A stretch of DNA of 64,000 nt from Saururus chinensis (Eukaryota > Streptophyta > Magnoliopsida > Piperales > Saururaceae), in contig CP141147.1 of assembly GCA_035235625.1 (NCBI GenBank), positions 13,753,001-13,817,000 on the forward strand, read 5' to 3'. Below, in pieces: positions 1 to 58,281 of the stretch (position 1 is its first letter; each line of letters begins with the position of its first letter). The notes beneath the pieces were generated by a model that was given only the letters and a program-made list of their open reading frames with translations, searched no databases and was not told the origin of the DNA. The position numbers were made by a program, and so were the translations under genes.

Positions 1-1390
1 GTAATATCTCCAATGTTATTTTAATAAGATTGGATACAAACATAGTTCTACCTAAAAACTAATGTCTTTTAAGAAACATAACATCATATATACAATGCTT
101 ACATATTTACAATTAAATGTGGAATCATATGTCAAAGTTGACTTAGAATAATAAAAGAGTCGATAAATCAGACAAAACATTCTTTCACAAAATTCAATAA
201 ATCATTCAAAAAATTGAATAAATCAATCATTCACGGAATCTGATAAATCGAAAAAATTATTGGTAAACAAGATTGGATAAATCATTCATTGACAAATGTC
301 ATCGATACTGAAGTGACATACATATGTGCTTGTGGGGAAACATGATCAAAATGATATAGATCTTCCCATGGTAACCTGATTTATGAGCGCACCAAATGCC
401 TCAATAAGCAGGGATCTAGGACTCATAATTCTAATAGCTTTTAGGCTTATACTAAATAACTACCTTTCAAATCCTATCATTGAAAACCATTTGAAATATC
501 ATTCTAATGATATAATAACATTTTAAAGTCCATATACTGAAAAGTCTGAGACCCAAACCGATGAAGAACTCATCAAATATTCATAAGTCATTCAACATCT
601 TTTTAAAACATGCATTCGTGCATAAATTCGAAACCATACAAGTTAACTACTTAAGGAAAACATATATTCATTTAAACAAGTAGGCATCAAAGCATGCTCT
701 ATTTTGTTTATTTTAGAAAGTTATGCTTATACTCTTAAATCACATTTTACACGCTTGAAACTTGTAGGAATATAATTTTATGATTTATTACATGTAATCT
801 TAGTGGGATATCTTTAACTAAGCATATTTTTTAAAGCATGACAATTGAGTAATTTTTAACGTTTTATGATGGATCTTTATGCTTGGCTATTACTTGAAAA
901 AATTGGGATAAGTGTGTAATGAAAAAATGAATGAAAAAAATGTTGATTTTTTTTTAAAAACTTGATTGATTGAAAAAATGATGATGATTTAAAAAAAAAT
1001 GAGAATAATGGTTTGTTTCACTTTTCACCTAGTAATCAGGCCTCATGCTTGGGCAAGTATAGGGGTTCGCATCAAAACATGAACACTTGAAATAAATTCT
1101 TTTATGACAATAAGATTAGATACAAACATAGTTGCAAAATAGGAGAGCAGAACAACAAAGTTGTAGGAAATACACTTTCTTTTATTAATATTACTTGATG
1201 AGTTCATTACATAAACAAAATGACCTCAATATCTAGTAAAGATACAAGATTGAAGTAAAGTTGCGTAGTTGATTACACGATCAACTACCATAGATTACAT
1301 GATTGCGAATGAAATTAAAATAGTTGAATGAACTTTATAAATTGTATATCGGTATAGAGATTTAAAAAAAAGTAAAACTTATTACATTTC
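1..1390. repeat. Diverged LTR-like remnant and AT-rich sequence
   Basis: No convincing gene. The first ~120 bases resemble, with many differences, part of the family B LTR near 29.45 kb (shared words such as GATTGGAT, TAGTTCT and CCTAA in the same order), so this is probably an old copy of that family. A perfect 9-base inverted repeat (GTAGTTGAT, 6-base loop, ATCAACTAC) lies near 1265-1288 and contains ACACGAT, the core of the palindromes in the introns at 15-18.6 kb. The rest is A+T-rich with no recognisable feature. Confidence 0.35.
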
Positions 1391-1500
1391 ATCTGATTCT
1401 GGATTGAATTCCTAATTGATTCGTCCGCGAAGAATGGCAGCACAAATTTGAGGCCTGGCCAATTTTGTGATCTCCACTTAGGTAAAATCTGGTTGAAGGA
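1391..1500 (-). pseudogene. 3' end of C48 peptidase-like gene, cut off by the retrotransposon
   Basis: Read on the minus strand, this continues the last exon that stops at 14904. Removing the element and one copy of the CTCCT duplication places this stretch directly after the DCGVF-containing exon, and the frame then runs on with residues such as EITKLARPQ and AAILRGRIN before a stop. That is the usual C-terminal tail of transposon-associated Ulp1-like proteins. Two in-frame stops interrupt the tail. Assignment rests on continuity of frame and on the duplicated target site. Confidence 0.6.
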
Positions 1501-1505
1501 CTCCT

Positions 1506-2491
1506 TGTTGACATAAAAAAAATTAAAAAAAAACAAAAAAATTAATCAAATCAAAATTCAATTGCAAAGATCTCGGAGCTTGACTAGCTTCGGATAACTC
1601 TAAATTTTCAAAATGGACAAAGTCTCAAAAATGGGCAAAGTCCAAAAAAAAAAAAAATTTGAAAATGAAACAAATTCTAAAGTTATACACATGGTAATGT
1701 GTTAAAAGAAAAAATTAAAATTCAAAGGCAAGAGTTCGGAGCTTGACTAGTTCTCGATAATACTAAAGTCTCAAAATGGACAAAGTAAAAAAAAAAATTA
1801 TCACCAAAATCTAAAGGCCAAGATTTCGGAGCTTGACTAGCTCTGAGTGAGACCAAATTTTTAAATGGACAAAGTCTCCAAAGTGGACAAAGTCCAAAGA
1901 TAAAAAAAATGAGGAGGCAAAATCTAATCCTACACATGTAGGAATAGACTAAGGCTTCCAACAAAAAAATTATATTATGAGAGGACTTCATGGGGGCCTC
2001 TTTACATTCAAAATTACACAGTTAAGAAAGGCTTTGTAAGCCTCACATGGCCACATAAAAAAAATCCAAATTGCAAAGGACTATGTGAGACCCCATAAAT
2101 CTTACACCAAAATAGCCATAAAACCAAAAGGTTAAGTGACACTCGTGGACCCCACAATAAGTTTTGTTAAAAAAAAAATTAAGATGAATAATGATGTGTA
2201 AAGAGAGTGATGAAGTGGAGTGGACCAAGTCAAAGGTATAACGCCCGATCTTCTCTCACACTTCCCACTAACTTACACTTCACACTGCCCACTTCCTCCA
2301 CTAATCAAGCCGGTTCTTACCAACCCTCCCACTAACCCATTTTCCATCTCCCACTAATTCACTCTCCATTTCCCATGAACTACCTTTCCAACTCACCCCA
2401 CCACTTTGCTTAACTGTACAACCCCCATCCTATAAATACCCCTTCGTTTTTATAAGAAGGAGCTTTTGTCTTTCAAGTCTACGGAACCTCC
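1506..2491 (+). repeat. 5' LTR of the Tat-like element, truncated at its 3' end
   Basis: This is nearly identical to 13432-14441 over its whole length, with scattered substitutions and A-run length changes. Similarity stops abruptly after AACCTCCAA, where the 3' copy continues for another ~460 bases and this copy passes into integrase sequence. It holds a TATA-like motif (CCTATAAATACCCC, near 2430-2443). High identity to the 3' LTR indicates a fairly recent insertion. Confidence 0.85.
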
Positions 2492-3480
2492 AAGGCCTAC
2501 CATGATAAAACATTGTATGGAATATGCTAAGAAATGTCAAGCATGCCAATATCATGCAAACTTTATACATCAAGCACCTGAATTCTTGCACCCTACATCT
2601 GCTTCTTGGCCTTTCGAAATGTGAGGAATGGATATCATAGGTCCAATTACCCCTAGCTCATCTAAAGGTCATAGGTTTATAATCACGGTCACTGACTACT
2701 TCTCAAAATGGGCAGAGGCTACAGTACTTCATGAAACAAAAATGAAAGATGTATTAAAATTCTTGAAGACTCATATTATTTATAGGTTTGGAGTCCCGAG
2801 AAGGTTTGTGCATGACAACGGACCTCAATTTGCAAACTATAAATTTTACCAATTCTGTGCAAAGTATGGCATTGAGAGTGTAGCCTCACTGCATACAATC
2901 CTACTGCTAATGGGCTTGCTGAAGCTTTCAACAAGACTATATGTAAACTCGTAAAGAAAGTTATATCAAAGAATAAAAGGGATTGGCACGAAAAATTGCT
3001 AGAAGTATTGTGGGCTTATCGCACCACAGTTCGAAATGCAACTCAAGCGACACCTTTCTCCCTTGTTTATGGATGTGAAGCGGTCTTACCTTTAGAAATT
3101 CAAATCCCATCATTGAGAGTGGCTTTGGCAAATCAATTAACAAATGATGAGAATATCAATCTACGCCTACAAGAACTAGAAATTCTTGACGAAAAAAGGT
3201 TACAAGCCCAGCAAACTACAGAATTGTATCAGGCAAGGATGATTGGGGCTTTCAATAAAAAAGTTAAACAAAGATCTTTCAAGAAGGGCGATTTGGTGCT
3301 TGCCGTTAAATGACCCATGGTTTTCACGCTTAAGTTAAAAGGCAAGTTTGAACCTAAATGGGAAGGGCCATACGTTGTTGAGACGGTTTATTCAAATGGA
3401 GCTTACCAACTCTTGACACAAGAAGGTGATCAGTGTTTACTACTGATCAATGGAAAATTTCTAAAAAATATTACCCTTAG
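2492..3480 (+). pseudogene. Retrotransposon integrase, C-terminal part of pol
   Basis: Integrase inserts reverse-transcribed DNA into the genome. Visible here are the CxxC half of the zinc-binding domain (CQAC, near 2540), the first catalytic Asp in GMDIIGP (2631-2633), the second in HDNGPQF (2814-2816) and the third residue, Glu, near 2921-2923 in an NGLAEAFN context. That is a D-D-35-E spacing once a one-base frameshift before 2921 is allowed for. The C-terminal part shows GKFEPKWEGPYVV and GAYQLL, usual in Tat/Athila-type pol. Breaks: TGA at 2622-2624 where Trp is expected, the frameshift between the second Asp and the Glu, and TGA at 3311-3313 where Arg is expected. No RT or RNase H precedes it. 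Not functional. Confidence 0.85.
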
Positions 3481-3550
3481 AAATGGAATCAAATGATACA
3501 AAGATGTAAACTCAAATGCAAGGTTTTAGTTAAACAAAAAAAAAATGGGG

Positions 3551-6500
3551 CTAAAATTTGAGGCTATTAAAAACTTCATTCATAGCTTGTTCTGCTTTAT
3601 GCTTCATAGCTATTCTAGCTTCTTCGCTAGAAGAAAAGGATCGCTCCAAGTCTTTAATTTTTTTATGCAACTTGCTTACTTCCCCAACTTTGACACTGAT
3701 CTTTGCATCCAATTCTTTAAGCCTAAGGGATGAATCTCTGAGCTCCACTTCAATAATTGATTGTTCCCTTGAAACTCCATGAATCTGGTTTTCAAGTTCT
3801 TCCTTCTTTTTAAGAAGAGCCTCTATTTGACCCTCCACCTCAATATGCTCTTGCTTTAGAGAAATCTGATAATCCATGAGTTTATTGAGATAGGCATATT
3901 TCAAAGAAGACTATGCTTCAATACCTTTCCCCTCTGATTTAAGTCCTTCAAGCTCATTTAACAATTGAGACTCTACCTTTCTCTCCTCATCTAATTTCAC
4001 ATATATGAGACTTGGTCCACATGCTCTCTTTATTTCATTGGAAGTTGTGATTATCTTATCCAACGCAGAACAATAAGGATTTGTGTCAACTTCTTGATAA
4101 TCTAGAAGGCTTAATAAGTTTTCTAATTCAGCTTTCCTTACAGCTATCATGGTGGGAGTCATCTTAATCAGAACCTCCAGTGTCTCTTTAAATGTTCTAA
4201 GAAGAGAATATATAATCATCATTTGAACACATACATTTTCCACATCATCTTGTTCATGGGAAGAAGTAGCCGCATCGACATGTTGATTTGAAACACCTTT
4301 GCTCAAGATTAGGCCTTTGCTATAAGAGGAGCTTTTACTAGAAGAAGAATTAGAACTCAAACTGTCAGCTGCTGAAATGTCTTTTAAGGCCTCAATTCTT
4401 TCCACCCTAGATGTAATACCCGTTTCTAAGGGTGGTGAAGTAAGTGTGGTGGGAACCTACAAGTCAAAATTTACAAAAATTATTAAAAAGAAAAAAGAAA
4501 AAAAAAGAAAAAAATGGAATTAAAGAAGAAGAACCAAAAGATATACCCGAGCAAACCGAGCAAACCCCAATTATGGGTTAGTCTCATCTCTAGTTGTTGT
4601 GCCTTGGGCTTCTGTTTGGATTATACCACTTAAGTTTTCAAGTATAGAGCCTAATCCTTGAGACTCTAATGGATTCACATCCTTTAAGTTTCTACGCATG
4701 GGGCCTAAACAAAGAATATGAAATGAGTGAGCTATGCAACTATTTAAAAAAAAAAAACCTTACTTGATAAAGAAGGGACAACTTCATTCACATCAAGTTC
4801 ATGAGTCCATTCTTGAATTCTTGATAAACTTGAATTATTAAGGGTGCCTAATAAAAAAAAAGAGGAAGATAATTTTTTTTAAAAAAAAAAAAGAAGAGAG
4901 AGGTGTGTTTAGTATACCTTCAAAAATAATAATGTCTTCCGTATTCACATCATCATCAATTCCCTCCACAAAATTTACCAAGCTTTGAGAATTCACATCA
5001 CTTGCGTGACAAGAGGATGATGAAACTTCTACATACAAGGAGAACAATGAGTTAAAAAAAAGGGGGGGGGGATGTGGGGAGAATAATGAATTAAAAAAAA
5101 AGTCAAGATATTTAAACCTTGAATAGTAATGTCTTCATTTCTCTTCTTCTTCCCAAGACGAAGAGCTTTTGACTTTATCCTAGTTCCCTTACCAAAATCA
5201 TCTGATTTAGGTGAAAGTGGCCTTTTGTTCGAATCAGCAATGATGAAACGGAATGAAGGTGCATTTGATATATCTACATTCAGGTAGTTCTCAGTAGCTC
5301 TTACCCACCAATTAGCAAAACACTCAGTGGAGACAGTGCTTTCATCTGGATAAATGAATTTTGTTCCAGTATTACATTTTATAAAGTGATACCAAGCACA
5401 AGCAGCATCACAAATTTCTCCATGTCGTTTCCATTGAAGGTTAGGGTTTCCCACCATACCTTACGAATATCCAAACTATACAGCAAATCGGCTTGGAGTA
5501 TACGGCTCAAGTTCTATTTGAAGCACACTTCGATAAACTAAAGTACTGGGGCGGATGTTGATAAGCCAGATAAATGCAGCATCATCCAATTTTTTTACAC
5601 TAGCAAGGGAAGAACAATCTATCATCATTCCTTCATCGTTAAAATGGGGAAGACTTCCAAGATGCCAGTTTCCATGAAAATGGATTTTCTCCCGTGCTTC
5701 TTTTAAAGATAATTTTTTTAAAGAACCTACTGCTAATCTTCCCAAGAAGGCTTCTCCCCTATTAGCTTGAGGAGCAGGTGGATGGTGTAGAGATGGACAA
5801 TGCATGACATACCAACCATAGAAGAAATGGGCAGGATAAGCCTTCAATTTGTACTTCTCCAAACCAAGATGCTTTATATGATCACGTAAACCAGTGCATA
5901 GACGAGCTACCATGGCAGGGCAAAGTGCAAAACGTCTACCCAATGCCATGGGGGCTGCAACCAAGAATAAGGAGGGGTTGAGTAGTCGAGGATTCTTGCT
6001 CGGGAATATACAATGGCGGAGCCATGCAACAAGGTATGCAGCGAGGAAAGTTTCTCTAAGCATGGTATAGCCATCAGCTCGTAATGCTCGAAGCCCTGGC
6101 TCTTCACTTTCAGGCACTAGTAAATCTTCCAAGCTAATGGAATCTTTTCTTGCCTGTGCTTCAATATCTGCCTTGGTAAGAGGATTCCGAGTCTTATATC
6201 TCAAAGATTTCTCACTACTCTCTATCTCGGCCTATGTTTGGCTAAATTCAACAATGTTAAAGAAATGGCTTGTCCACTGTTGAATGAGAACACCTTTGGC
6301 ATGAACTTGTTTCTCTTTTGCAATAATGGTAAAGTGAAGAAACAGTTCAGCTACAATCCTGTATAAGTCAGGCTCTGCCTCTCGAATCAACTCTAACTCT
6401 TGGTTGCAGGGAATATACTCCTCATAAACCTCCCCGAAGCCTGGAAGAGCTGAGATGTGTGTCATCTCACTTAAAGAAAACCCATACTCACCATTTGGAG

Positions 6501-7364
6501 AAAGACAAGTATTTGTTGCAAGACAAAAAGACTCCAGCATAGCAATGTAAACTTGCTTATTGAATGTTATTCCTCTTTGTGTAGCCAACACTGCTGCCAA
6601 CAAACCATTTCTCTCCAGTCTGGATGCAAATGAACCTACAATCTTCCCAGTAAGAATAGACCAATGCTTTGAGTCATAAGCCCATCTACTTATGTAGTCA
6701 AAGTCATTATATGAAGACCCTTTCGCCATAGATTGAGTCAAAAGTATTTCCAACTGAATATACTCTTCTCTATTATTCGAAGATGTAAGAGTACTTGGAT
6801 ATAATACTCGACGTTCGATGTCTCCATATCTTCACTCGCTGAAGTCTCTACTATCTTTTGTGAATGCCACAAATTTGACACCGCTAGAACGGTGAGTCAA
6901 TTCTGAAGAGCATCCTAAAAATAACTCCTTGGATGGAATTCCTCTTGAAGGGGAACCTTCAGAGCAAACTGTATATTTATAAGATCTAATGAATAGATCG
7001 CGCTCAAAAGACATGTTGGTGGAAATAACTTCCCCATATATATGAAAATGTCGATTTGCTTTCGTGGGAATCCATAAGAAAAAGAACTGCCTTTGCCACC
7101 ATCTCCGCATATGTAGGCAGGTTTTGGAAATATCCACTCTCTATTAGTTATTAGAGTCCTTTCGAGATCTGGAACCATTTTTTTTAAAATGGAAGTCCGC
7201 TTGTGTTGGTTATCAGCACCTAAATCTTTTATTGTTCTAGAGATGATTTGTCCGTCCAAACGAAAAACTGGGAATCTAGAACCGCCTGACGTATCTTCTT
7301 CAGATGCTTGGCTTTGGACATTCACATGAGAAGAAGAAGCTATTTCTGGAAAAAAGTCTTTCAA
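3551..7364 (-). pseudogene. Antisense spliced gene inside the retrotransposon: plant-mobile-domain-like protein with coiled-coil tail
   Basis: Five exons can be modelled on the minus strand: 7364-5118, 5028-4918, 4847-4764, 4704-4547 and 4456-3551, all with GT-AG borders. Exon phases (1,1,1,0) agree across all four introns, which is hard to get by chance. The first exon encodes a ~700-residue region resembling the plant mobile domain (aminotransferase-like) family, with W/F-rich helices and an HFFYGWYVMH segment; the last exon encodes a Ser-rich stretch and a long Glu/Lys heptad-rich coiled coil. Antisense extra reading frames between pol and the 3' LTR are known in Tat-lineage elements. Breaks: a frameshift near 7085, and in-frame stops at 6832 (TGA), 6232 (TAG), 5476 (TAG), 5461 (TAA), 4571 (TAA) and 3911 (TAG), mostly explained by C-to-T in CGA, CAG or CAA codons. 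Function of this family is unknown; here it is decayed. Confidence 0.7.
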
Positions 7365-7429
7365 ATAAACCTAAAAAATAATAAGAAGAAGAAGAGAAGT
7401 TAGTAAATAATAAAAAAAAGTTTTCATCA

Positions 7430-10400
7430 AAAAAAAAAGCAAGTCTAAAGTTCTCAATCCCCTCGGAAAGAGATATAATGAGACCTGCATCTCTCTTTTG
7501 AAATAAAAAATAAAAAAAAACAAACAAATCAAAATCAAATAGAGCAAACCTAAAGTTCTCAATCCCTTCGGAAAGAGACATAATCAAACTTGCATCTCTA
7601 TTTTGAAAAACGAACAAAACAAAATCGAAAGAAACAAGTCAAAATCAAATAGAGTAAGCCTAAAGTTCTCAATCCTCTCAGAAAGAGACATAATGAGACT
7701 TACATCTCTCTTTTGAAAAACGAACAAAACAAAATCGAAAGAAACAAGTCAAAATCAAAGAGAGTAAGCCTAAAGTTCTCAATCCTCTCGGAAAGAGACA
7801 TAATGAGACTTGCATCTCTCTTTTGAAAAAAAAAAAATCGAAAGAACCAATAAAAATCAAAGAGAGCAAGCCTAAAGTTCTCAATCCCCTCGGAAAAAGA
7901 CATAATGAGACTTGCATCTTTCTTTTAAAGAACGAAAAAAAATAAAATAAAATAAAACAAACAAATCAAAGTCAAAGAGAGCAAGCCTAAAGTTCTCAAT
8001 TCCCTTGGAAAGAGACATAATGAGACTTGCATATCTCTTTTGAAAAAAAATTAAAAAAAAAAACAAATCAAAATCAAAGAGAGCAAGCCTAAAGTTCTCA
8101 ATCCCCTCGGAAAGAGACATAATGAGATTTGCATCTCTATTTTGAAAAACAAACAAAACAAAATTGAAAGAAACAAGTCAAAATCAAAGAGAGTAAGCCT
8201 AAAGTTTTCAATCCTCTCGGAAAGAGACATAATGAGACTTGCATCTCTCTTTTGAAAAACAAAAAAAAAAATCGAAAGAACCAATAAAAATCAAAGAGAG
8301 CAAGCCTAAAGTTCTCAATCCCCTCGGAAAGAGACATAGTGAGACTTGCATCTCTCTTTTAAAGAATGAAAAAAAAATAAATCAAAGTCAAAGAGAGCAA
8401 GCCTAAAGTTCTCAATTCCCTTAAAAAGAGACATAATGAGACTTGCATATCTCTTTTGAAAAAAAAAATTGAAAAAAATAAACAAATCAAAATCAAAGAG
8501 AGCAAGCCTAAAGTTCTCAATCCCCTCGGAAAGAGACATAATGAGACTTGCATCTCTATTTTGAAAAACAAACAAAACAAAATCGAAAGAAACAAGTCAA
8601 AATCAAAGAGAGTAAGCCTAAAGTTTTCAATCCTCTCGGAAAGAGACATAATGAGACTTGCATCTCTCATTTGAAAAACAAAAAAAAATCGAAAGAACTA
8701 ATAAAAATCAAAGAGAGCAAGCCTAAAGTTCTCAATCCCCTCGGAAAAAGACATAATGAGACTTGCATCTCTCTTTTGAAGAACAAAAACAAACAAATCA
8801 AAGTCAAAGAGAGCAAGCCTAAAGTTCTTAATTTCCTCTGAAAGAGACATAATGAGACTTGCATATCTCTTTTGAAAAAAAAAATCGAAAAAAACAAACA
8901 AATCAAAATCAAAGAGAGCAAGCCTAAAGTTCTCAATCCCCTCGGAAAGAGACATAATGAGACTTGCATCTCTCTTTTGAAAAACGAACAAAACAAAATC
9001 GAAAGAAACAAGCCAAAATCAAAGAGAGTAAGCCTAAAGTTCTCAATCCTCTTGGAAAGAGACATAATGAGACTTGAATCTCTCTTTTGAAAAAAAAAAT
9101 TCGAAAGAACTAATAAAAATCAAAGAGAGCAAGCCTAAAGTTCTTAATCCCCTTGAAAAGAGACATAATGAAACTTGCATCTCTCTTTTGAAAAACGAAA
9201 AAAAAAAAAAACAAATCAAAGTCAAAGAGAGCAAGCCTAAAGTTCTCAATTCTCTCGGAAAGAGACAAAATGAGATTTACATATCTCTTTTGAAAAATGA
9301 ACAAAACAAAATCAAAAGAAACAAGTCAAAATCTAAGAAAGTAATCCTAAAGTTCCCAATCCTCTCGGAAAAAGACATAATGAGACTTACATCTCTCTTT
9401 TGAAAAAACGAAAAAAAAAATCAAAAGAACCAATAAAAATCAAAGAGAGAAAGCCTAAAGTTCTCAAACCCCTAGGAAAGAGACATAATGAGACTTGCAT
9501 CTCTCTTTTGAAAAATAAAAAAAAAATCGAAAGAACCAATGAAAATCAAGGAGAGCAAGCCTAAAGTTCTCAATCCCCTCGGAAAGAGACATAATGAGAC
9601 TCGCATCTCTCTTTTGAAAAACAAAAGAAAAATTCTCGAAAGAAGCAAGTCTAAAGTTCTCAATCCTCTCGGAAAGAGACATAATGAGACTTGCAAAATA
9701 AATCAAAATCAAAGCGAGCAAGCTTAAAGTTCTCAATCCCCTCGGAAAGAAACATAATAAAACTTACATTGCTCTTTTGAAGAACGAAAAAAAAAATCAA
9801 AATCAAAATCAAAATCAAAGAGAATAAGCTTAAAGTTCTCAATCCCCTCGGAAAGAGACATAATGAGACTTGCATCTCTATTTTGAAAAAATGAACAAAT
9901 CGAAAGAACCAATGAAAATCAAAGAGAGCAAGCCTAAAATTCCCAATCCCCTCGAAAAGAGACATAATGAGACTTGCATCTCTCTTTTGAAAAAAAAATC
10001 GAAAGAAATAATGAAAATCAAAGAGAATAAGCCTAAAGTTCTCAATCCCCTCGAAAAGAGACATAATAAGACTTGCATCTCTCTTTTAAAAAACAAAAAA
10101 AAAATTGAAAGAAACAATAAAAATCAAATAGAGCAAGCCTAAAGTTCTCAATCTTATCAGAAAGAGACATAATGAGACTTGCATCTCTCTTTTGAAAAAG
10201 GAAAAAAAAATCGAAAGAAATAATGAAAATTAAAGAGAGCAAGCTTAAAGTTCTCAATCCCCTCGGAAAAAGACATAATGAGATTCGTATCTCTCTTTTG
10301 AAAAACAAAAAAAATCGAAAAAAATAATAAAAATCAAAGAGAGCAAGCCTAAAGTTCTCAATCCCCTCGGAAAGTGACACAATGAGACTTGCATCTCTCT

Positions 10401-10645
10401 TTTGAAAAACAAAAAAAAAATCGAAAGAAACAATGAAAATCAAAGAGAGCAAGTCTAAAGTTCTCAATCCCCTCGGAAAGAGACATAATGAGACTTACAT
10501 CTCTCTTTTGAAAAACGAAAAAAAATTCTCGAAATAAGCAAGTCTAAAGTTCTCAATCCCCTTAGAAAGAGATGTAATAAAACTTGCAAAATAGCAAAAA
10601 AAAAATAATTAAGATTCTCAATCTTCTTGAAAAGAGAATTAGAAT
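7430..10645. repeat. Tandem array, about 31 units of ~103 bp
   Basis: The marker AAAGTTCTCAATC recurs about 31 times from 7445 to 10550 at intervals of roughly 75-115 bases. Each unit reads roughly: AAATCAAAGAGAGCAAGCC, the marker, a CCCTCGGAAAGAGACATAA block, GAGACTTGCATCTCTCTTTT, then a variable A-rich spacer (AAAAACRAAAAAA, sometimes CGAAAGAA). Units differ mainly in A-run length and a few substitutions; the last ones are degenerate. CATCTCTCTTTT faces AAAGAGAG in the next unit, so units can pair with neighbours. Short frames open on both strands only because the period is near-regular; there are no codon signals. The position between the antisense gene and the 3' LTR matches the hypervariable 3' region of Tat/Ogre elements, which seeds satellites in other plants. 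Confidence 0.95.
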
Positions 10646-10809
10646 TGCAACAATTTTTTATATGTCGTTATATAAGTTATAAAGTTAAATTTTAAGTTCT
10701 TGGATGTCCATAAATTACACTCCTCTATCTGGCAGAAAGAAGAAGACTTGCTCCAATCCCAAAGTAGTCTTCAATCTATAAAATTAAAAAAAAAATTAGC
10801 TTCATAAAA
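10646..10809. other. AT-rich spacer after the tandem array
   Basis: It links the array to the GC-rich segment. I see no gene or repeat in it apart from poly-A runs. Confidence 0.5.
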
Positions 10810-12310
10810 AAAAAAACTGGTGGCGGCTCTTCCTAAGCTGAGCTCAGCCGGACTTGAGCTTAGCCAAACTCAGGCTCATGGCAAGCCGGATTTAAAAAAA
10901 AAAAAATCAATTCGAATTGCAGCCATTGATTTTCCTGACTAAATCAGGACAACTCATAAAAAAAAATCATCACAGCCATTGATCACCATGGACAAATCAT
11001 GACCATTGATGTCAAATCCCTAATACCCCTTCCTCTCCTTCCTCCATCCCATTCCTTTCCGATCACCTCCAGCCACCCCTTCTCCTCTTCCCAGTCCAGT
11101 TCCCATTCTGCCGTGGGATCCGCCGTTCTCCCCACCGCCACCGGCCGACGGTCTTCCCTGCCGTGACTCCACCGTCGCTGTTCTTCTTCGGTTATCTCTA
11201 CTCGCTGCCGGACCTCACCTAGCTGCCTCCGCCCCTCTCGCCAGATCGCCATCTCTTCTTCCTCCGCTGCACCTCACACTAACCAGTCACCGCCCCTTTT
11301 CCCTCTCCTTCGAGCATCAACCCTTTTCTCCACCACCCTCACCCTCAGTCTCGATATTCTTCCACCACATTCTCCCTCGCCGGCCATCGCTCCCTCTTCC
11401 TCGCCAGATCTCCTCTTCTTCTTTGTCCATCAACCCACACCTCGCACCGTTGCGCTCCTCTTCCTCTCCAATCACCTCCGCTACACCAATCTCTGCCATC
11501 CCCTTCTTCTTCCATCAAGCCTCTCCTCCGGCCGCCGCTCTCTAGTCCCTCTTCTGCCATCTTCTTTCACCGGATCGCCACCCCTCTCATCTTCCACTCT
11601 CCACCACCAAATCTCCGTCCTCAACTACAAAACTGATTTTCCCTTTTCCGGCTCTTTCTTTCTTCCCCGTCAAGGATGGTAGAGACGGTGAATGCATCAT
11701 AGATAGCCGACGGACAAGGGCCGCTAGTCACAAGGTTCGTCGTCTTTGTTGTGCTTGTTGTATCTACTGTCACAAAGTCACATCCTTGACGACTTAGGCT
11801 CTCCAAATCCCTATCTCCCAGTTCCAGAAAGCAAGGAACCGAGGCTCCTCTTTGGTGCAGTGAGAATGGCCCTTCCTCGGACCTCCGCCAGTCGTCAGTA
11901 TTCCCTCGGTCCCTGACCCCCTCCACATCCGATTCCGAGTCCATCGGTCCAAGTCTTCATTGACTGAAGGCAGAGGGCATAGCTTCACCCTTCGTAGTCT
12001 GCACACCGCCTCTCCAGTCGCCTACACATCTTCATACTACATCTAATTTGCCATCACTTCTCCCTGCCCGGCCGCCACCACCTCTCTCACTCTCTTCCCT
12101 CACTGCTTTCAATTCACCAGCCCTTCTCCCCAATCCGTCCCACAAATCAACACGGCTTTTCCATCCCTCTCTGTATGGCTCCGACGCCTCTGTATTTCTC
12201 CCATTCTCTCATCGTCCAAAGAGTAAAAGAATAAATACAAAATAGATAAATAAAAGAGAGAGAGACAACAACCTTGAGCAATTTCCACCAACGCGTCCTC
12301 ACAAATCAAT
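10810..12310. other. GC-rich, pyrimidine-strand-biased segment within the element
   Basis: The composition changes sharply from AT-rich to C/T-rich on the + strand (repeated CTCC, TCTTC, CGCCAGATC, GCCGGC words). Near 10838 there is a palindromic AGCTGAGCTCAGC. Several overlapping frames stay open on both strands because stop codons are rare in such sequence, but none has recognisable domains or convincing splice borders. On the minus strand it lies upstream of the antisense gene, so it could be that gene's leader and promoter region; it could also be a captured host fragment. Neither is proven. Confidence 0.5.
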
Positions 12311-13084
12311 AGAGATAGAGTAGTAATTCAAAGGAAGAAGACGACCTTCGGCGATGGAGAAAGAAGAGTCTTCACCAAGTTATGTACGAAGAATAACAAT
12401 AACCTCAAGCAGAAAGAAAAAAAAATCTTAAGAAAATCCGTTCAATTAAGATTTTAATCTATTTTCAACTTAACAAAGTTTCTAAAAATTGGGCAAACAA
12501 CCTTAAGTCAGTTTCTAAAAAAAATATATTATTATTATTTTATTTTATTTTTTATTTTTTTTGCAGAAACAAAGACAATGCCAATTTTTAGTTTAACATA
12601 GCAACGAATTCTACCAATGGTAGAAGTTAAGTTGTGATAGGAATGAAGAAGCAGATTTAGCTAGAACAATTAGGATCGAGTTTCTTAGATCAGATAGAAC
12701 AAAATTCATTGAAAATCTTTCAAGATCAATTAGGATTTTATTTTCCGACCTATTCTCCTCTGAGATAGAATCCTTTAATATCTTACGGTCGATGAAGAAT
12801 TATTCTTCAATATCTTACAGCCGATGAAGGATTTTGTTTCTTCTAGGTCAAAATAAGCCGACAATTGATTGACACTGATCTAAGCAAAAAAAAAATTGAC
12901 AAGGGAATGAAAGTGTTTAGGTGTGCGTGGATTTTGCAACAATGGTAACAAAAAAATTCCAAATTGCAAAAAACACTCGCACCCTTACAATTTTTTTATG
13001 AAGATTATATTAATAAATAATAATAATAAAATAATAAAAATGATGATTAGAGAGAAATCTATTAGTGCAGAATTTCTTCCCTAA
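12311..13084. other. AT-rich internal region of the element, no gene seen
   Basis: Low-complexity ATT and TTTTA runs lie at 12520-12560 and 13005-13045. Two imperfect copies of a short motif (GATGAAG plus TTC-rich flanks) occur around 12780-12840. Nothing else is recognised. Confidence 0.4.
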
Positions 13085-13351
13085 TCAATTCTTCCTAACA
13101 TCTTCAAGAAAAACGATACGCCTATTGTCTAAATCTTCGGTGTAGAAGAGATATCCATGTGCAAGGATAAAGCTTGGAAGGGGTCCATCCATTCGACGAG
13201 CTTCAATGACATCCTTGTGTGCACTCGTTATTATCTCCACAGCTCTATCAATTATAACTTTGGAATTCCCATTAAAATTTAAACGGGTTCCATATGAAGC
13301 AATTTGAATTGCAGGCAACTCAGTAGAAGAAGTTAATGGGAAATCAAGCAT
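13085..13351 (-). CDS. Short unrecognised frame near the 3' LTR
   Basis: An 88-residue minus-strand frame with ordinary-looking composition, not a repeat translation: it contains ASYGTRLNFNG, a DRAVEIITSAHKD helix-like stretch, and ILAHGYLFYTEDLDNRR. I do not recognise the family. It lies upstream of the antisense gene in the same orientation, separated by the array and the GC-rich block, and could be a 5' exon of it, but I found no decisive donor site. It ends about 80 bases before the purine-rich tract of the 3' LTR. Confidence 0.35.
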   Translation of the reverse strand: MLDFPLTSSTELPAIQIASYGTRLNFNGNSKVIIDRAVEIITSAHKDVIEARRMDGPLPSFILAHGYLFYTEDLDNRRIVFLEDVRKN

Positions 13352-13431
13352 TGCTCTAACAATTTTTTTTTCCGATGGGTGACAATTCCATTTATAATGT
13401 TACTCCACTGTCACCCCTCGGAGGGGCTGTT

Positions 13432-14903
13432 TGTTGACAAAAAAAAATTCAAAAAAAAAATAAAAAAATTAATCAAATCAAAATTCAATTGCAAAGATCT
13501 CGGATCTTGATTAGCTCTGGATAACTCTAAATTTTCAAAATGGACAAAGTCTCAAAAATTCGCAAAGTCCAAAAAGAAAAAAAAATGAAAATGAAACAAA
13601 TTCTAAAGTTATACACATGGTAATGTGTTAAAAGAAAAAAATTAAAATTCAAAGGCAAGAGTTTGGAGCTTGACTAGTTCTGGATAATACTAAAGCCTCA
13701 AAATGGACAAAGTCCCAAATTTGGACAAAGTAAAAAAAAAAAAAAACATCACCAAAATCTAAAGGCCAAGATTTCGGAGCTTGACTAGCTCTGAGTGAGA
13801 CCAAATTTTTAAATGGACAAAGTCTCCGAAGTGGACAAAGTCCAAAGATAAAAAAAATGAGGAGGCGACATCTAATCCTACACACGTAGGAATAGACTGA
13901 GGCTTCCAACAAAAAAATTATATTATGAGAGGACTTCATGGGGGCCTATTTACATTCAAAATTACATGGTTAAGAAAGGCTTTGTAAGCCTCACATGGCC
14001 ACATAAAAAAAATCCAAATTGCAAAGGACTATGTGAGACCCCATAAATCTTACACCAAAATAGCCATAAAACCAAAAGGTTAAGTGACACTCGTGGACCC
14101 CACAATAAGTTTTGTTAAAAAAAAAATTAAGATGAATAATGATGTGTAAAGAGAGTGATGAAGTGGAGTGGACCAAGTCAAAGGTATAACGCCCGATCTT
14201 CTCTCACACTTCCCACTAACTCACACTTCACACTGCCCACTTCCTCCACTAATCAAGCCGGTTCTTACCAACCCTCCCACTAACTCATTTTCCATCTCCC
14301 ACTAATTCACTCTTCATTTCCCACGAACTACCTTTCCAACTCACCCCACCACTTTGCTTTACCATACAACCCCCATCTTATAAATACCCCTTCGTTTTTA
14401 TAAGAAGGGGCTTTCGGCTTTCATGTCTACGAAACCTCCAAAGAGAAATCCAGAAGTCCATCACACACCAAAAGACACAGAAAATTCCCAAAAAGCCTTG
14501 ACCTTTTGAAAACTGAAGAAGTTCAAGGAGTCGGAAGACAAGCAGAAGCATTCAAGAAGGAAGAGGAATTCGTACAAGGGAGCTCTCATTCTTCCAGAAG
14601 AAGTTTCTTTGTTTCTTCTTTTCTCTTTTCTAAACTTGAAAATTGTAGCCACTTCTCCTAGCAACTCTCTTTTTCTTATTTTAATAAAATTGCAGTTGCT
14701 TCTTCCATTTTTCCAATTAATCGAAGGGATTCAAGAATTGGTTAATCACTACTACTCACTCTAAAGTGCAAAGAGTAGTCTTGATTAATCAAGAGAAGGT
14801 CATCCCACATAAAAAAAAAGGGTTTTCTCTATCTCTTGCAAGAGAGGATCATTTGATCATTTCTCTTGTCTTGTGCTTAGAGAACTACCGAAATCCCCCA
14901 ACA
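13432..14903 (+). repeat. 3' LTR of the Tat-like element, full length (1472 bp)
   Basis: It starts TGTTGACA directly after a purine-rich tract (CGGAGGGGCTGTT) and ends CCCCCAACA, followed by CTCCT, the same five bases that precede the 5' LTR. A TATA-like motif (CTTATAAATACCCC) lies near 14380. The part after 14441 is missing from the 5' copy. Confidence 0.9.
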
Positions 14904-15069
14904 CTCCTTCGGCCAGCTTCACTACAAAATACATGAGAAACACACCACAGTCTTCGCTCATCTCTTGATATGGCCATTTGTTGATCTTTATCAATGGCCA
15001 CTTTGTTGCACCCTTTATGTGCAGGATCCTCTCCATTTCTGTGGAAACATGTTTCCGAATATGGCCCAC

Positions 15070-15400
15070 CTCTACAAAGTGGTGATTGTGGTCATTCTTT
15101 AGTGATAACATGACATACGATACATTATGTTGGTACGAACACGACACATGAATTTATTGTGTAACTGATAACATGACATAAAATATGTTGTGTGATCACA
15201 AATACGTTAGTTATACACGATAATATCATTTTAAAATTATTGTATTATTGATACAACAATATGTGGATGTTTCATATTATCAATAGCGCAATAAACAGAA
15301 GTGGCCTTAGCCACTTTTCACATATCGTGCGATTCATAACACACTATGTAATGCAGTGTATGTTCAAGAACACGATAATTAACTATTTACTAATTATTAC
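15070..15400. repeat. Palindrome-rich intron 4 of the C48-type gene
   Basis: Between donor GTAATA (after 15401) and an AG at 15070-15071 lie several imperfect inverted repeats built on ATCGTGTTAT/ATAACACGAT: for example near 15210-15235, 15255-15295 and 15320-15380. No coding potential. Same motif class as the other three introns. Confidence 0.65.
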
Positions 15401-16241
15401 CTCATTTTTTATGCACTCCTTTATAAGCAGAGACACATAATCAATGTGGAAAAGCGTCACAATGGGCCATTCCTTTTGTGGTTGCACCAAAAAGTCTTGA
15501 AGGATCTCTTGATCTTCAACCCATAAAATCTTCATGTGGAACACGAAATATAGATCAAGGTAGTTGTGTAGCACCATAGCGACCTCCTTCTCATCTATTT
15601 TCTCCTCAGTGTGCTCTTCAACGTCTATCACATATCAGATACTTTCTCGTAGTTCCTGATCAACTTGATCAGGATTATCTAATTTAGTGGTATTTTTGGA
15701 AGTAACATTTGAGCCCACCATTTTTGGGGTCGGAGACTTTGCAGAAAATGCCTCTCATGCATGGATAATATATGGGGCAGGGACAGATGCCAATGGAACT
15801 TCATCCCTTGGTTTTGCCTTCTCCTCCTCCCTTGCCGGGCGATTCAACTTTGCAATCTTCTCGGCAATGTAGTTGCTATATTCCTTTGGATTCTTTACGC
15901 CCAGAGCAGCCACTTTCTTGGCTGGTTCCTCCCCCTTTGATACATGAACTGTTAGATTAGTCACTCTATACCTTGTCCTCCTAGGCATGAGAGGTAGTAG
16001 GGATGCGATGGGGCCAACATCTGAAGCTTTCTACTTCTTTATCTTCATCTTTATTTGCGTTAGTGGCAATTCTTCCTTCACCCTACCTTGACCTAATTTT
16101 TCCTCCCAAGATTGTACATTTTCCTCCACCTGGGATTGAACCACTTCCTCATTAATTTTCTTGAGGAATATGGTGATTACGGTCCTTTCAACCTTCAAAT
16201 CTTCTTCTTCTTTGGGGAGCTAGCTTTCAGCTCCCTTTTCT

Positions 16242-16500
16242 TTGCATATAACATGTAATAATTCGTATTATTTAATACATGACATGCAAACAATGTGTGT
16301 TAATGATGACACAACATGTCCACCTATCGTATTGAAACTAATACGTTAATATATATATATGGTCGTGTTATCAATCACATGACCACTGCCATATCATTTT
16401 CTTATAAAACAATATTGTATGTTTGCATGTTATCGATGACACGATGACCTCAAAACTAACACAATAATAGAAAAGGTCATGTAATAAAAAATATACTTAC
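16242..16500. repeat. Palindrome-rich intron 3 of the C48-type gene
   Basis: The donor GTAAGTAT is at 16500 downward and the acceptor TGCAAAG ends at 16242. The sequence between holds repeated ~20-30-base imperfect palindromes (around 16260-16290, 16295-16320, 16330-16360, 16362-16390, 16420-16445), each a pair of AACACGAT-like arms around a short centre. Confidence 0.65.
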
Positions 16501-17199
16501 GCAAAATGAAATTCTCATCGACAGACTGAGGGATAGATTTTCTTTGCTCTTCACGAGTAGATTGGTGAACAACTTCACTTGATTTGAAAGCTCTCCTTTG
16601 ATTGTTGACGGAGGGGTTGCTGCATGCCGGATCTCTAGTTGAGGGGGTTCATGCGTCTGCTCGGTCTTCGGTTAAGGTGGGGGTTGCATATGTTCTATTA
16701 AGATCGTTGCCACCTCGAGAGCATTTTTAACCCTCTCGAGTGCAACTTGCATAATGTCTATGCTCCAACCCCACTCCCCGTAGAAGATGACCTTTTCCAA
16801 TACCACGTCAATGATCCCAATCATGATATCTGCTAGCATGATGAAGCTGTCAATGACGCCTTTGCCGGATTGGAATTGACCTGACATATGTCCATGATGG
16901 GCTTGAACAAGAATTGTTTTCCTCTGTATCGTGGTATGCATGGTTGCCTTCTTCTCCTTCGAGGCTAGACTTTGGCCATCGATCAAGTGAGCCTCTTTGG
17001 TAATTGGAGTTATTTGCATAACCACTTGTGAATATACCTTGAGCCGCACGAGTATGTCCTTGTACCACTTCCTCATCCTATAATGAGCCAACAACTTCTT
17101 CCTCGACTTTTCATCGGCCAAGTCAAGTTTAGCGGCTTTCTCCACATCCATCATCAGTTGCATAAACCCGGGTCACCTCTTGCACCTCAAGCTACATGG

Positions 17200-17529
17200 A
17201 GGAGAACTCAGATCCCATATAGAAGTATGCTAAAAAAACTACACCTAGTGGACAAGGCAAAACAATTCCGTTAATAGTGATCACATGTCATGTCGTGTCA
17301 TGGATAACACGTTTATTAAACTCATCGTGTTATTGATTACATGCAATTCTTGCATCGTGTAATTGACTATACACGATATAGTACTTCATCGTCTTACCGT
17401 TAACACGATACATACACTTTCGTGTTACATAGCATGTTTTCTTAAACACGATATGTACACGATATGAGAATTCCAGCGATGGCGGAGCACTCATCTTATC
17501 TGCTCCTGATGTTTCTGTGGGCTGATGAT
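17200..17529. repeat. Palindrome-rich intron 2 of the C48-type gene
   Basis: This has the densest set: at least six arms of the ATCGTGTTA/TAACACGAT type between 17280 and 17475, spaced about 25-45 bases. Splice borders are less sure than for introns 3 and 4. Confidence 0.55.
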
Positions 17530-18192
17530 ATGCCTCGAATCAGCATGTCATGAATGGCCCCAGCCCAATTCTACCTTCCCACAACTGTCAAGTCATCTAT
17601 GAAGTCACACAAAGATGGGGAGACAAATCAGTTTCTCTGTGTGAATAAAATGAGGACCCCATGTGCACAATGGCCAACCATGCTTGGTCCTCGTCGGAGA
17701 CAATCAGTCAATTGTATGCGACTTCTTTCAAAATATTTTCAATGAGACTCTTCTCTGGCCACTTCCCTGCGAAGAACCTTTTGAAGAATTGCCCCTTGCC
17801 TTGTGCACCCTTCCCGTCGCTACTGTCCAACTTCAACAGGTTCCCTTTCGCACTCAAACCCATGATCAATGTGACTTCTTCGACTTTGAGGAGTAGTATT
17901 TTGCCCCGAATACTGAAAACTTCTTGTGAATTGTCCCAACACTCATCGATTAGAATGTCCAAGAGTGGCCTGAATATAATTGTTGGCTCGCAATCGTATA
18001 CTAGGTAGAACCCAGTCTCCTCCTAGATTACCTTGCATCCCAAACTCGATTCAACTAGGTCTTTTGATAGTCTATGTCCAACGGGGAAACTGTTAGTTCC
18101 AAGATCCGGTCTCCTCCCATAAATTCTCTTCTTCATCTCTTTTGATGCCTTCGCTGATTCCGCCATTTGACTGTATTCTTGTAGCTCTTCGT

Positions 18193-18595
18193 CTATTAAA
18201 GATGTTATACATATGTATATCAACAATGGGTCATGACAAAAATGAAAGAGTTGTGTTGATTCACATTATGTAACTAACATACAAATACACGGTAAATTCA
18301 TATATCGTGTTATCAGAAACATGATATGATGCCTTCTAAGACACGATAGCACAACAATTGAATGTCATCTTTTGCATATCGTGTTATTAATAACACGTTA
18401 TGTATGTTGTGCCTAGACAAGAGGAGGACATCTATATCGTCTATCTTATTATCGATAACACGATATATTACATATTGTATACTTGATAACATGACAAACA
18501 ACTGAGGGGATGAAATTACGTCATGTGTTTCACAACATGATACATGAAAAATCGCGTATATGAACCTACGATGTAGAGCAAGAGAAAGCCATTAC
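18193..18595. repeat. Palindrome-rich intron 1 of the C48-type gene
   Basis: The donor GTAATG follows 18596 and the acceptor TTTAATAG ends at 18193. Clear inverted pairs occur near 18305-18355, 18375-18400 (CGTGTTATTAATAACACG, a perfect 18-base palindrome) and 18440-18500 (TATCGATAACACGATA). Confidence 0.65.
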
Positions 18596-18763: not shown

Positions 18764-19319
18764 AAACCGTGTGTTGCAAAGTTTTTTCGCACCTCACTAA
18801 TCATACTTTGGAAATCAATTGTCGGTTTTTGAAAAGAGCCGATGGGATGGATCGAAAATTGGAACTCACACTACATATTTGCTTCTCACTGATTGGACTG
18901 TTGAAATCGTCGGTCGGTTTGGTCATTTGTGTGTAAATGTGATGGTGTAACAAGTTTACATGGTATAAACCCTAACCCAGGGATATTTTTGTCCAAAATT
19001 TATTCAATACCGTGTAAGTCCGAGTTCAATGGCATTTTGTGAAAAGACAAGGAATATGGAATATTCACTTCTTTGGCAAGGTAATATGGAAAAACTCTTG
19101 TTAATAAAGAATGAAATTGTATGACTACAGGTTTCTACACTTCATGTTTTTGAAATGTATATATGTAGTTGTACAATTATTTCCAAGATGAGGCTATAAA
19201 ATGGATGATTCCTTACTTGAAAGTGATCAGATCGAATTTATTTACTTGAGACAAGTATTCGTGGTTGGTTCTTTTTAAAATTAGTTATGTATTTTTAAGA
19301 GAAAATTATTTTTTACATT
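18764..19319. other. Upstream region of the C48-type gene, no gene seen
   Basis: It probably contains the promoter or terminus of the transposon that carried the C48-type gene (a GGGATATTTTTGTCCAAAAT stretch near 18980 is of the kind found near transposon ends), but no terminal inverted repeat could be matched to the other side. Confidence 0.3.
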
Positions 19320-43249: not shown

Positions 43250-43440
43250 GTTGGCGTTAGAACGGCCCTGCAGGGCGTTCGAAGGGCAACACTACAGTTT
43301 TGGCATTTTTCCTGTGTAGCCGATCGAACGGCCCTACAGGGCGTTCGAATGGCGACACTACAGTTTTGACATTTTTTATGTTTAGCCGATCGAACGGCCC
43401 TGCAGGGTGTTCGAACGGTTACACTGTAGAATTTGACAAT
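43250..43440. repeat. ~66-bp tandem repeat, 3 units, each with GATCGAACGGCC and CGTTCGAA motifs
   Basis: Each unit reads GATCGAACGGCCCT, CAGGG, CGTTCGAA, then ACACTACAGTTTTG and a T-rich end. Units are ~90% identical. The first unit lacks the exact GATCGAACGG start. They sit where A1 and A2 carry single, more diverged copies of the motif. Confidence 0.85.
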
Positions 43441-44649
43441 TTTATGTATATTGCTTATTTCGACATATCTACTCCCAAATATCATTTTTATGTTTATGTG
43501 GAGTATTTTGATTTATAATAAGCTACTTGAAGAACATTCTATTGATGTTTAGAATTTGTGGTGTATATTTAGTGTTATGTAGAATGGCTTGTGGTTGGAT
43601 ATATGATGTTGGAATTGCCATCTTGAAGTTATGAATGGTTGATTCTCTATGGTTATGTATATTTTCAATAGAGTTACAACATACTGACGGACTGATATGT
43701 CATGGTAGGATGTGGTTAATTGATGTGTGAATGTTAGTGAATGTCATGGTTCAAGGATGAAGTGAATGATCTTATACGTGTTTAACTTGTGGTTAAGCTT
43801 TGATTTGAGTTATGATTTTAATGATTCTTCTCCTATGATTTCCGTTGGAATTCATGATTAGATGTTAATGCACATGTGTAGTGTGATGGTGATTTAATTA
43901 CAAAGCATATTGATATACATTGAGTGAGGTGCTTCTACTATGTACACACACATGTGGGTTTAATGATTATGATGAGGCTTGATATTATGATTATGAATGA
44001 TGCATGAGGGGCTAATGAGAGCACTTATCATGAATTAGGATTCATGTATGCCTTACCCACGTATGTACCATGTTGCATGCATCATGAAAATGGATTTTTG
44101 ATTAAGGCTTTATCGAGATTAATCGAATTTGACCGATTGGATGCAATGTGGTGAAATTGCATGCCGGATTAATCGGTCGTGGCTTAATCGAAACTTGATT
44201 GGTCCGAAAGGACATGTTTTGATTTGAGTTCCTTCGTGGAACATGTGCACTCCTTGGGTTGAATCTAGTTAAGTGGAATTATATGGGGGACGAGTTATGT
44301 ACTTGTCTTGCGATTTGAGATTATTATTGTCTTCTGGACCCTGAGAATCCAGTATGGTATGCTCTTTGCACCAGCTACCATGTGTTCGTGGGTTTCCTAT
44401 GTAGGAAGTCGAGCTCTTCCCCATCGCAGGAGATGTCCCAAAAGAACACCCCTGCTCTAGGTTCTCTTCGTGAGAATGTGACATCCTTGGCCAGGATCGT
44501 TTGGGGCGAGTAGCCTTAAGGGATTGACAACCCTGAACTTCTTAAATTCTTGTGTGGAATTTGGACCACGACACGCCTTCGTGGCCTCGTCTATGTTCCC
44601 GTCTATGTGACACTAAATTGTGATTATTCATTGATGGAGGCATTCTTTA

Positions 44650-57498: not shown

Positions 57499-58264
57499 TC
57501 CATTCATTAATCAACCATTGAAACTAGAGCTTTGCCTGCATATTTATAGACTTTGAAAGTAAGAATCTTAATCCTACTTAATAAAGGAACAACAGATACT
57601 ACAAGAAATAAGATTATTTTAACTTAAGAATTGAGCAATCAACTATCACTTAACAACTAAGCAACCTAACAATTGGCCTAAACGTGGGTCATAATTTTTC
57701 AGGTTTTGCAAAAGAAATGTGGTAGCTGGAAGCCTTCTTAAATACCTTCTTTGCACCACCGTTTCACTGAGAAAAAGAGTTAGAAATGCAAGGGATTTTC
57801 TTGGCGAAGAACAACACAAACATTACCTTCTTGACTACATTGAGAATGAAGTCTGCACCTACATTTTAGCATCCCCTTTCTTCTCAAAGTCTCTTTTGGC
57901 TTTTTGTCATCTTAAAACCTAATGGCATATGTGATTTTCCTTTTTGGTTATTTCATTGACTCATTGCATTTGGTTTTTCTTTTATTATTGATGATTAATG
58001 TTTTGGGCCTGAGGCGAAAGCTTACTGAGCAAAGAAACAAAAAGGAGTTGAGTCATTGAAGTTGTTTCTGTGTATAAACTTAATATTGGGACAAATGTAT
58101 TTACTTACTCTATGTTGGTAGAAGGATGGAACTTTAATAGCTTAAAAATTCTGTGATCGGATTGATTGTCATGTTTCAAAACCAACTTTTGTAGAAAATG
58201 TTTCCAATGCGTTCATAAGCATGCAAATTATTGGCTTTTGTAACTTCTACGATTATTTCTTTAG
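57499..58264. other. Upstream region and probable 5' UTR intron of the MUSTANG-like gene
   Basis: No gene is supported. A pyrimidine-rich tract ending ATTTCTTTAG at 58264 is a good splice acceptor 17 bases before the start codon, so the leader is probably spliced. The first exon and promoter were not identified. Confidence 0.45.
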
Positions 58265-58281
58265 GTAGGTCTCCCTGTACC

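Follow-up and report, generated by a model that had tools for sequence, protein, structure and literature searches.

Experiments in Arabidopsis have shown that transposons can counter their silencing in a sequence-specific manner; there, the Mutator-like elements VANDAL21 and VANDAL6 each encode a transposase together with a DUF1985 protein, VANC21 or VANC6 (Hosaka et al. 2017, PMC5735166). As that study describes them, the two proteins bind introns, intergenic DNA and terminal non-coding DNA, exon probes are bound poorly, and the element loses DNA methylation; the motifs are YAGTATTAY for VANC21 and AGTTGTCC/AGTTGTAC for VANC6. Some VANC genes carry Ulp1 (review PMC13317346), and host RNA-directed DNA methylation (RdDM) is described as targeting the non-coding regions of VANDAL elements (Sasaki et al. 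2023, PMC10398659). Here, a 64-kb stretch of the Saururus chinensis genome (contig CP141147.1, positions 13,753,001 to 13,817,000; the whole stretch of 64,000 nucleotides is termed the window) contains a minus-strand gene whose introns are filled with short palindromes and which, judged by its sequence, appears to be a DUF1985 + C48 (Ulp1) gene of a Mutator-like transposon.

The palindromes probably constitute a family-specific array of binding sites in the non-coding DNA of this transposon, read by the DUF1985-C48 protein in a VANC-like form of anti-silencing. Their unit, motif A, consists of a 10-bp half-site, ATCGTGTTAT, and has the core dyad CGTGTTATNNATAACACG, in which half-site starts are 12 bp apart and the arms are separated by 2 bp. 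When both strands of the window are scanned at up to one mismatch, 11 of the 15 half-site matches fall within the four modelled introns (1.3 kb), one is exonic (16928), one is at 1272 and two are in 19501-64000; there are no such matches across the 13.4-kb long terminal repeat (LTR) element at 1506-14903. At up to two mismatches the window holds 77 matches, among them 27 intronic, 2 exonic and 43 in 19501-64000. The enrichment of introns over exons is significant at both thresholds (Fisher p = 1e-4 and 1.4e-10, respectively), in agreement with the concentration of palindromes in the four introns that the initial annotation had reported. That annotation also described the exons as free of the motif, which is nearly so, two matches (16820 and 16928) being exonic, and it noted a perfect 18-base palindrome, which exists but lies at 18380-18397 and not at 18379-18396.

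The features of the element copy in the window are given below in gene direction. All introns are modelled from sequence and are numbered 1 to 4 in that direction; half-sites are counted at up to one mismatch, with the count at up to two mismatches in brackets. L042 and L048 together form a longer copy of the element.

18984..19097, minus strand: terminal inverted repeat (TIR) of the Mutator-like element, outer end at 19097
18193..18595, minus strand: intron 1, with a GT donor, an AG acceptor, the perfect dyad at 18380-18397 and 4 half-sites (8)
17530..18192, minus strand: DUF1985 exon, with an open stretch at 17708-18022 and stops elsewhere
17200..17529, ends approximate, minus strand: intron 2, with 4 half-sites (8)
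16501..17199, minus strand: exon carrying the motif matches at 16820 and 16928 and a 166-amino-acid open frame at 16672-17172
16242..16500, minus strand: intron 3, with a GT donor and 2 half-sites (5)
15401..16241, minus strand: exon, 66% identical to the L048 copy over 125 amino acids
15070..15400, minus strand: intron 4, with 1 half-site (6)
14904..15069, minus strand: C48 (Ulp1) exon, Pfam profile positions 150-189
1506..14903, no strand assigned: LTR retrotransposon within the C48 exon, disrupting the gene and no part of the motif system
1386..1505, minus strand: C48 exon continued past the LTR retrotransposon, 82% identical in DNA to the longer copy and continuous with it (J 4791-5248)
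1244..1385, minus strand: presumably non-coding DNA following the C48 exon, with motif matches at 1272 and 1294; the longer copy is homologous as far as 1244

The intron ends first proposed hold in part. GT donors are present in introns 1, 3 and 4 and AG acceptors in introns 1 and 4, but in intron 3 the acceptor AG is two bases past the proposed end, and neither proposed end of intron 2 is a splice site. A hairpin at 1265-1288 had been placed just outside the 3' end of the gene. A 24-base hairpin is present there, but its outer arms, GTAGTTGAT/ATCAACTAC, are unlike motif A, the centre alone being similar, and its placement has to be revised: homology to the longer copy resumes past the LTR retrotransposon at 1505 and reaches 1244, and 1265-1310 therefore lies inside the gene, in the stretch that follows, which is presumably non-coding.

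The identity of the gene is suggested by its domains and by its homologues in the genome searched (516 Mb, 11 contigs). Exon 14904-15069 matches Peptidase_C48 (PF02902; E 1e-3, 19.4 bits, slightly below the cut-off of 20.7), and exon 16501-17199 is 68% identical to the L042 copy over 66 amino acids. Genome searches were made with exon 17708-18022 (best 150 of 1494 candidates scored) and with DUF1985 (PF09331; best 150 of 957 candidates scored), and seven loci of the former, counted by eye, overlap PF09331 matches. One homologue of the window exon, L049, matches PF09331 directly (E 9.5e-6, 26.1 bits, below the cut-off of 35.1). Because homologues of the exon overlap PF09331, the window gene is taken to be a DUF1985 + C48 gene. 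A PDB sequence search with two DUF1985 pieces gave no match at E<=1.

The window copy itself is dead. As an alignment gap at intron 4 shows, it lacks ~300 bp of the longer copy, among them some of the C48 exon, and this exon is also interrupted by the LTR retrotransposon, whose LTRs (the left being the shorter) share 94% identity over 1012 bp and whose 5-bp target duplication is CTCCT (1501-1505/14904-14908). Tandem units of ~104-110 bp occupy positions 7438-10526 of this retrotransposon. No transposase was found in the window copy, and the left end of the element was not found within 4 kb past the window.

In the longer copy, the DUF1985-C48 gene is located just inside the TIR, and what appears to be a MuDR-type transposase, as expected of a Mutator-like element, lies on the opposite strand in L048 (DBD_Tnp_Mut, PF03108; E 1.3e-4, 21.9 bits, below the cut-off of 25). 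The far end of this copy was not found. Here, motif A is present between the coding blocks of both genes and in the intergenic DNA. With exon limits that are approximate, there are 20 matches in 6366 bp of non-coding DNA against 3 in 3158 bp taken as coding at up to one mismatch (p 0.045), all three of the latter in one transposase block (9138-9236), and 56 against 7 at up to two mismatches (p 8e-5). The arrangement is shared: in all seven other close copies (the best-scoring ones), motif clusters are found at similar distances on both sides of the DUF1985 exon, and the window TIR is also present in five of the seven (L042-L046) within the flanks examined. In L049, a more diverged window-like copy that is 68% identical to the window exon and 60% to the L042 copy, motif A follows the DUF1985 exon. 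What motif A follows is thus the non-coding DNA of the transposon rather than introns in themselves.

The motif extends to copies that carry no genes. Twenty stretches of 10 kb on the first chromosome were picked from 100 listed motif sites, mostly multi-site clusters with single sites little sampled, and all 20 contain this transposon family or relatives. In 18 of these, the motif-bearing DNA contains one shared family of non-autonomous elements, with TIRs that start GAGTTTTTTCC. The TIR, ~115 bp in length, is common to gene-bearing and non-autonomous copies; that of the window is 74% identical to the TIR of the non-autonomous copies over 113 bp (E 3.9e-15). Both ends could be located in 14 of the 18 copies, which are 1.9-2.5 kb long. 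Among these 14, flanking 9-bp sequences are identical at 7 or more of 9 positions in 6 copies at the exact ends, and in 12 copies when a shift of up to 2 is allowed at each end, a shift that raises chance matches; this points to the ~9-bp target site duplication of Mutator-like elements. No tblastn match (E<=1e-3) to DUF1985, C48 or transposase was found inside the 18 elements, the transposase matches in L015 and L028 being outside them. Motif A forms a central array of ~0.5-1.3 kb in these copies, ~600 bp from each end where both distances were measured (e.g. L014, L015). In L015, the shared TIR adjoins a transposase, which we take as the other end of a gene-bearing element; in the same stretch, a non-autonomous copy (4069-5971) and the transposase end of a gene-bearing family member (6792 onward) are separated by ~0.8 kb. 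The remaining two stretches, L012 and L013, hold transposase pieces 54-65% identical to the longer copy, and L013 additionally carries a C48 gene (53% identity to the longer copy) opposite in orientation to the transposase. Since no TIR was found in either, these are possibly relatives rather than members of the family.

Motif A is not a sequence that turns up just as often in random intergenic DNA: a genome-wide count gives 901 copies of the exact dyad CGTGTTATNNATAACACG and none of its reversed control. The 20-mer TCGTGTTATNNATAACACGA occurs 63 times, with 0 for its control, and an earlier non-symmetric pattern of the motif, searched on both strands, gave 868 matches against 1 for the reversed control. 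Chance or AT-richness as the source of the motif is rejected on the basis of shuffles and of these reversed controls. The pairing of half-sites is equally regular: a partner (up to three mismatches) lies at offset 12 for 25 of 46 forward half-sites in gene-bearing copies (5 at the next best offset) and for 160 of 211 in the non-autonomous stretches (next best 62, at offset 43). Across the 20 stretches, 166 of 288 dyad-to-dyad spacings below 200 bp are 31 or 32 bp, near three helical turns, the next commonest being 87 bp (33 times, out of helical register) and 104 bp (28 times).

The base composition of the dyads suggests past, heavy cytosine methylation. At the A/T positions in the inner part of the dyad (4 to 17), conservation across 308 dyads is 0.96-0.99, and the outer ones vary more (A 0.92 at position 0; T 0.45/G 0.44 at 1; A 0.57 at 20; T 0.94 at 21). 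The C/G positions are retained at 0.68-0.81, with replacements of the C-to-T type in CG and non-CG context alike, as expected from such methylation. Because dyads resembling the motif were the ones selected, conservation is inflated in general, but C/G and A/T still differ in this way at positions 5 and 16, which were counted. At the CG position of the half-site, 672 half-sites in non-autonomous arrays read CG in 340, CA in 153 and TG in 127, and the corresponding counts in the longer copy are 15, 16 and 13. The ratio of observed to expected CpG reaches 2.18 in arrays, compared with 0.65 for the flanks of these elements; window introns have 1.17 (0.60 with half-sites masked) and window exons 0.52. 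The C-to-T decay of motif A fits the targeting of VANDAL non-coding DNA by RdDM, as described in PMC10398659.

A second DUF1985 family in the same genome has a different motif. Ten distant DUF1985 loci (L029-L038, the best Pfam matches) were compared with eight window-like loci, the window included. Motif A has 78 matches in the window-like loci against 1 in the distant ones, and motif B, AAAACTATAA, has 120 in the distant loci against 6 in the window-like ones, with shuffled sequences giving means of 2-11. The copies of motif B stand as direct repeats, in steps that are multiples of 8 bp; 115 of the 120 matches are on the strand of the gene and none is inside a DUF1985 stretch. Because motif B was derived from the same ten loci, the genome-wide test matters. 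Its 23-mer occurs 145 times in the genome, with 0 for the control, and among 100 listed sites, 50 (29 of 60 clusters) have one of the 150 listed DUF1985 matches at a distance of 3 kb or less, where 0.2% would be expected. All 50 are upstream of the match and on the same strand, and 5 of them belong to the ten discovery loci; the other 50 sites are near none of the 150. Each of the two DUF1985 families compared therefore appears to have its own motif, the family specificity known from VANC proteins, and the two targets differ in form, a palindrome in one and a direct 8/16-bp repeat in the other. The direct-repeat motif of the L029-L038 family (AAAACTATAAAACTGGAAAACTA) is in an 8/16-bp register upstream of the gene, and L036 and L037 have an acidic Glu/Asp-rich stretch downstream of it. 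Four DUF1985 matches (C8:21687598, C2:398799, C3:50979850 and C6:17378832) have identical scores and alignment ranges, and perhaps represent a recently active family.

Comparison with VANC/VANDAL, as far as those systems are described, reveals likenesses at several levels. In both, a Mutator-like element has a transposase and a DUF1985 protein, as do VANDAL21-VANC21 and VANDAL6-VANC6 (PMC5735166); dense arrays of a short motif occupy introns, intergenic and other non-coding DNA, with coding DNA nearly free; and the motif differs per family and is also present in elements without the gene. The initial annotation's statement that no named element resembles this one was thus too strong, as the VANC target motifs of Arabidopsis VANDAL elements behave alike (PMC5735166). 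Two hallmarks of a VANC-type system, an element-encoded DUF1985 protein and dense motif arrays in the non-coding DNA of the same family, are present in Saururus. There are also differences. VANC targets are 8-9 bp long, with VANC21 motifs in one orientation, whereas the target here is a CpG-bearing palindrome of 18-22 bp at a spacing of 31-32 bp; the ~115-bp TIRs and the C48 domain in the protein are likewise unlike VANC/VANDAL. Sasaki et al. are said to have described, in 2022, gain and loss of DUF1985, DUF287 and Ulp1, motif density and helical periodicity in eudicots, and non-autonomous VANDALs. The absence or degeneration of TIRs that marks the VANDAL clade is not seen here, and it is not a strict mark: the original VANDALs are without TIRs, but lengths of 46-174 bp are tabulated for TIRs in the clade (PMC6446971). 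Neither PMC5735166 nor PMC10398659 contains the letters 'palindrom' in its main text, and a literature search with the motif letters gave no plant-transposon title among the matches listed.

Two further groups of elements are comparable in part. In KAONASHI and other Ulp1-carrying Mutator-like elements (MULEs), the C48/Ulp1 gene is opposite in orientation to the transposase (PMC2528002), as it is in L042+L048 and in L013, with the C48 match just below its Pfam cut-off. KI-MULEs are described as non-TIR, with no palindromic target mentioned in the descriptions given in PMC2528002 and PMC13317346, whereas both TIRs and a palindrome are found here. Spm TnpA and maize MURA are alike in that an element-encoded protein counters the methylation of its own family, but they differ as proteins, and MURA acts on TIRs (PMC10398659).

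If anti-silencing proceeds here as in VANDAL elements, the system would involve: recognition of motif A by a protein of the element; removal of silencing at the arrays; and release of the transposase. The most likely reader of the motif is the DUF1985 + C48 (Ulp1) protein, encoded by the gene whose introns carry the palindromes. This protein would bind the arrays in introns, intergenic DNA and non-autonomous copies, and the bound protein would remove host silencing (DNA methylation) there. With silencing removed, the transposase would be made and the family would be able to move. The dyad symmetry suggests that the protein binds as a dimer, and because 31-32 bp is close to three helical turns, neighbouring dimers would sit on one face of the DNA. 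Exons would be motif-poor because coding sequence cannot freely drift into the motif. This dimer-binding, counter-silencing role is proposed because each DUF1985 family has one motif arrayed in non-coding DNA, as with VANC21 and VANC6. The earlier suggestion that the hairpins serve the transposon carrying the gene as functional sites is well supported as regards their distribution. More tentatively, the target may take a particular form, in which a DUF1985-Ulp1 dimer reads a palindrome of 18-22 bp that has three CpG positions and recurs in phase, once per three helical turns, and two DUF1985 families with unrelated targets evolve side by side in one genome, perhaps that of a plant outside the core eudicots. 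The motif would then be both protein site and methylation target, and host methylation with C-to-T decay would directly erode the defence of the element.

Several observations weigh against a VANC-like system read by the DUF1985-C48 protein. Pfam gives no match, DUF1985 included, for window exon 17708-18022 itself, the C48 and transposase matches are below their cut-offs, and the window copy carries stops, the C48 deletion and the LTR insertion. When the window gene is taken by itself, spacing at 31-32 bp is weak, being seen in 5 of the same-strand pairs listed, and CpG observed/expected in the arrays remains at 1.56 when half-sites are masked. None of 50 listed exact dyads is within 3 kb of the listed Pfam DUF1985 matches, and by eye none is near the matches of the exon 17708-18022 search on that chromosome; the exact dyads are mostly in non-autonomous copies, which are tied to gene-bearing copies by shared TIR and motif. 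Finally, the transposase could be the reader instead. In that case the palindromes would be sites of the transposase (MURA), internal repeats that aid synapsis or transposition like the subterminal repeats of other DNA transposons. Motif A does share its element with a MuDR-type transposase gene, and it is present in non-autonomous copies that were necessarily moved in trans. The arrays, however, are central in the non-autonomous copies, ~600 bp from each end where both distances were taken, and are spread over the non-coding DNA of both genes rather than concentrated at the ends; the second family ties motif B to DUF1985 genes, in elements that may carry a transposase of their own. A transposase target is therefore possible but unlikely.

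Recognition by a host factor or chromatin pathway, with the arrays as small-RNA sources or silencing targets, for example, and no gain for the transposon, would accommodate the C-to-T drift at motif cytosines, which suggests heavy methylation, and the targeting of VANDAL non-coding regions by RdDM (PMC10398659). It is nonetheless improbable, as passive targets need neither the regular array spacing nor a separate motif for each DUF1985 family compared, and the inner A/T of the dyad is retained at 0.96-0.99 in the 308 dyads, although these were selected for closeness to the motif. Motif A also consists of inverted repeats inside introns, as RNA hairpins acting in splicing or small-RNA production would. 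This reading has very little probability and is rejected: arms 2 bp apart are too tight for an RNA loop unless pairs open, central arrays are present in copies without genes, and the arms do not covary significantly (chi-square p 0.16 across those 280 of the 308 dyads in which each arm reads CG, CA or TG; dyads with TG in both are somewhat more frequent than expected, 23 against 15.8). Lowest of all in probability is the proposal of the initial annotation that a tiny palindromic mobile element gave rise to the introns or invaded them. The density of motif A in introns agrees with it, but in all seven other close copies the clusters surround the DUF1985 exon at comparable positions, and the motif also fills intergenic and central-array DNA, arrayed at 31-32 bp. 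No end, target duplication or unit of a tiny element was seen, although no dedicated search was made. On the basis of the shared positions and of the motif outside introns, intron gain by such an element is rejected.

Three other features of the window were noted. A 66-bp tandem repeat at 43260-43447 contains a nearly palindromic GC-rich block, GAACGGCCCTGCAGGGCGTTC. Long open frames at 58219-60678 resemble a domesticated Mutator transposase. At 62553-63681, a host gene matches chains of the photosynthetic NDH subunit PNSB2 in PDB, presumably those of barley, Arabidopsis and spinach. A tree of this one PNSB2-like gene sets the window apart from Arabidopsis + spinach with 92% UFBoot, although a grouping with spinach is not rejected (AU p 0.11).

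The mechanism proposed for the Saururus element, binding of an element-encoded DUF1985-C48 protein to arrays in non-coding DNA, is of a known kind; two features set it apart from the Arabidopsis cases as described, namely its clear TIRs and a target that is long, palindromic and CpG-bearing. The DNA side of a sequence-specific anti-silencing system would thereby be readable from a plant genome sequence alone. The analysis provides a concrete candidate pair of protein and motif with an unusual palindromic target, and it suggests a search rule for other plants: a DUF1985 gene together with a motif over-represented in its non-coding DNA.

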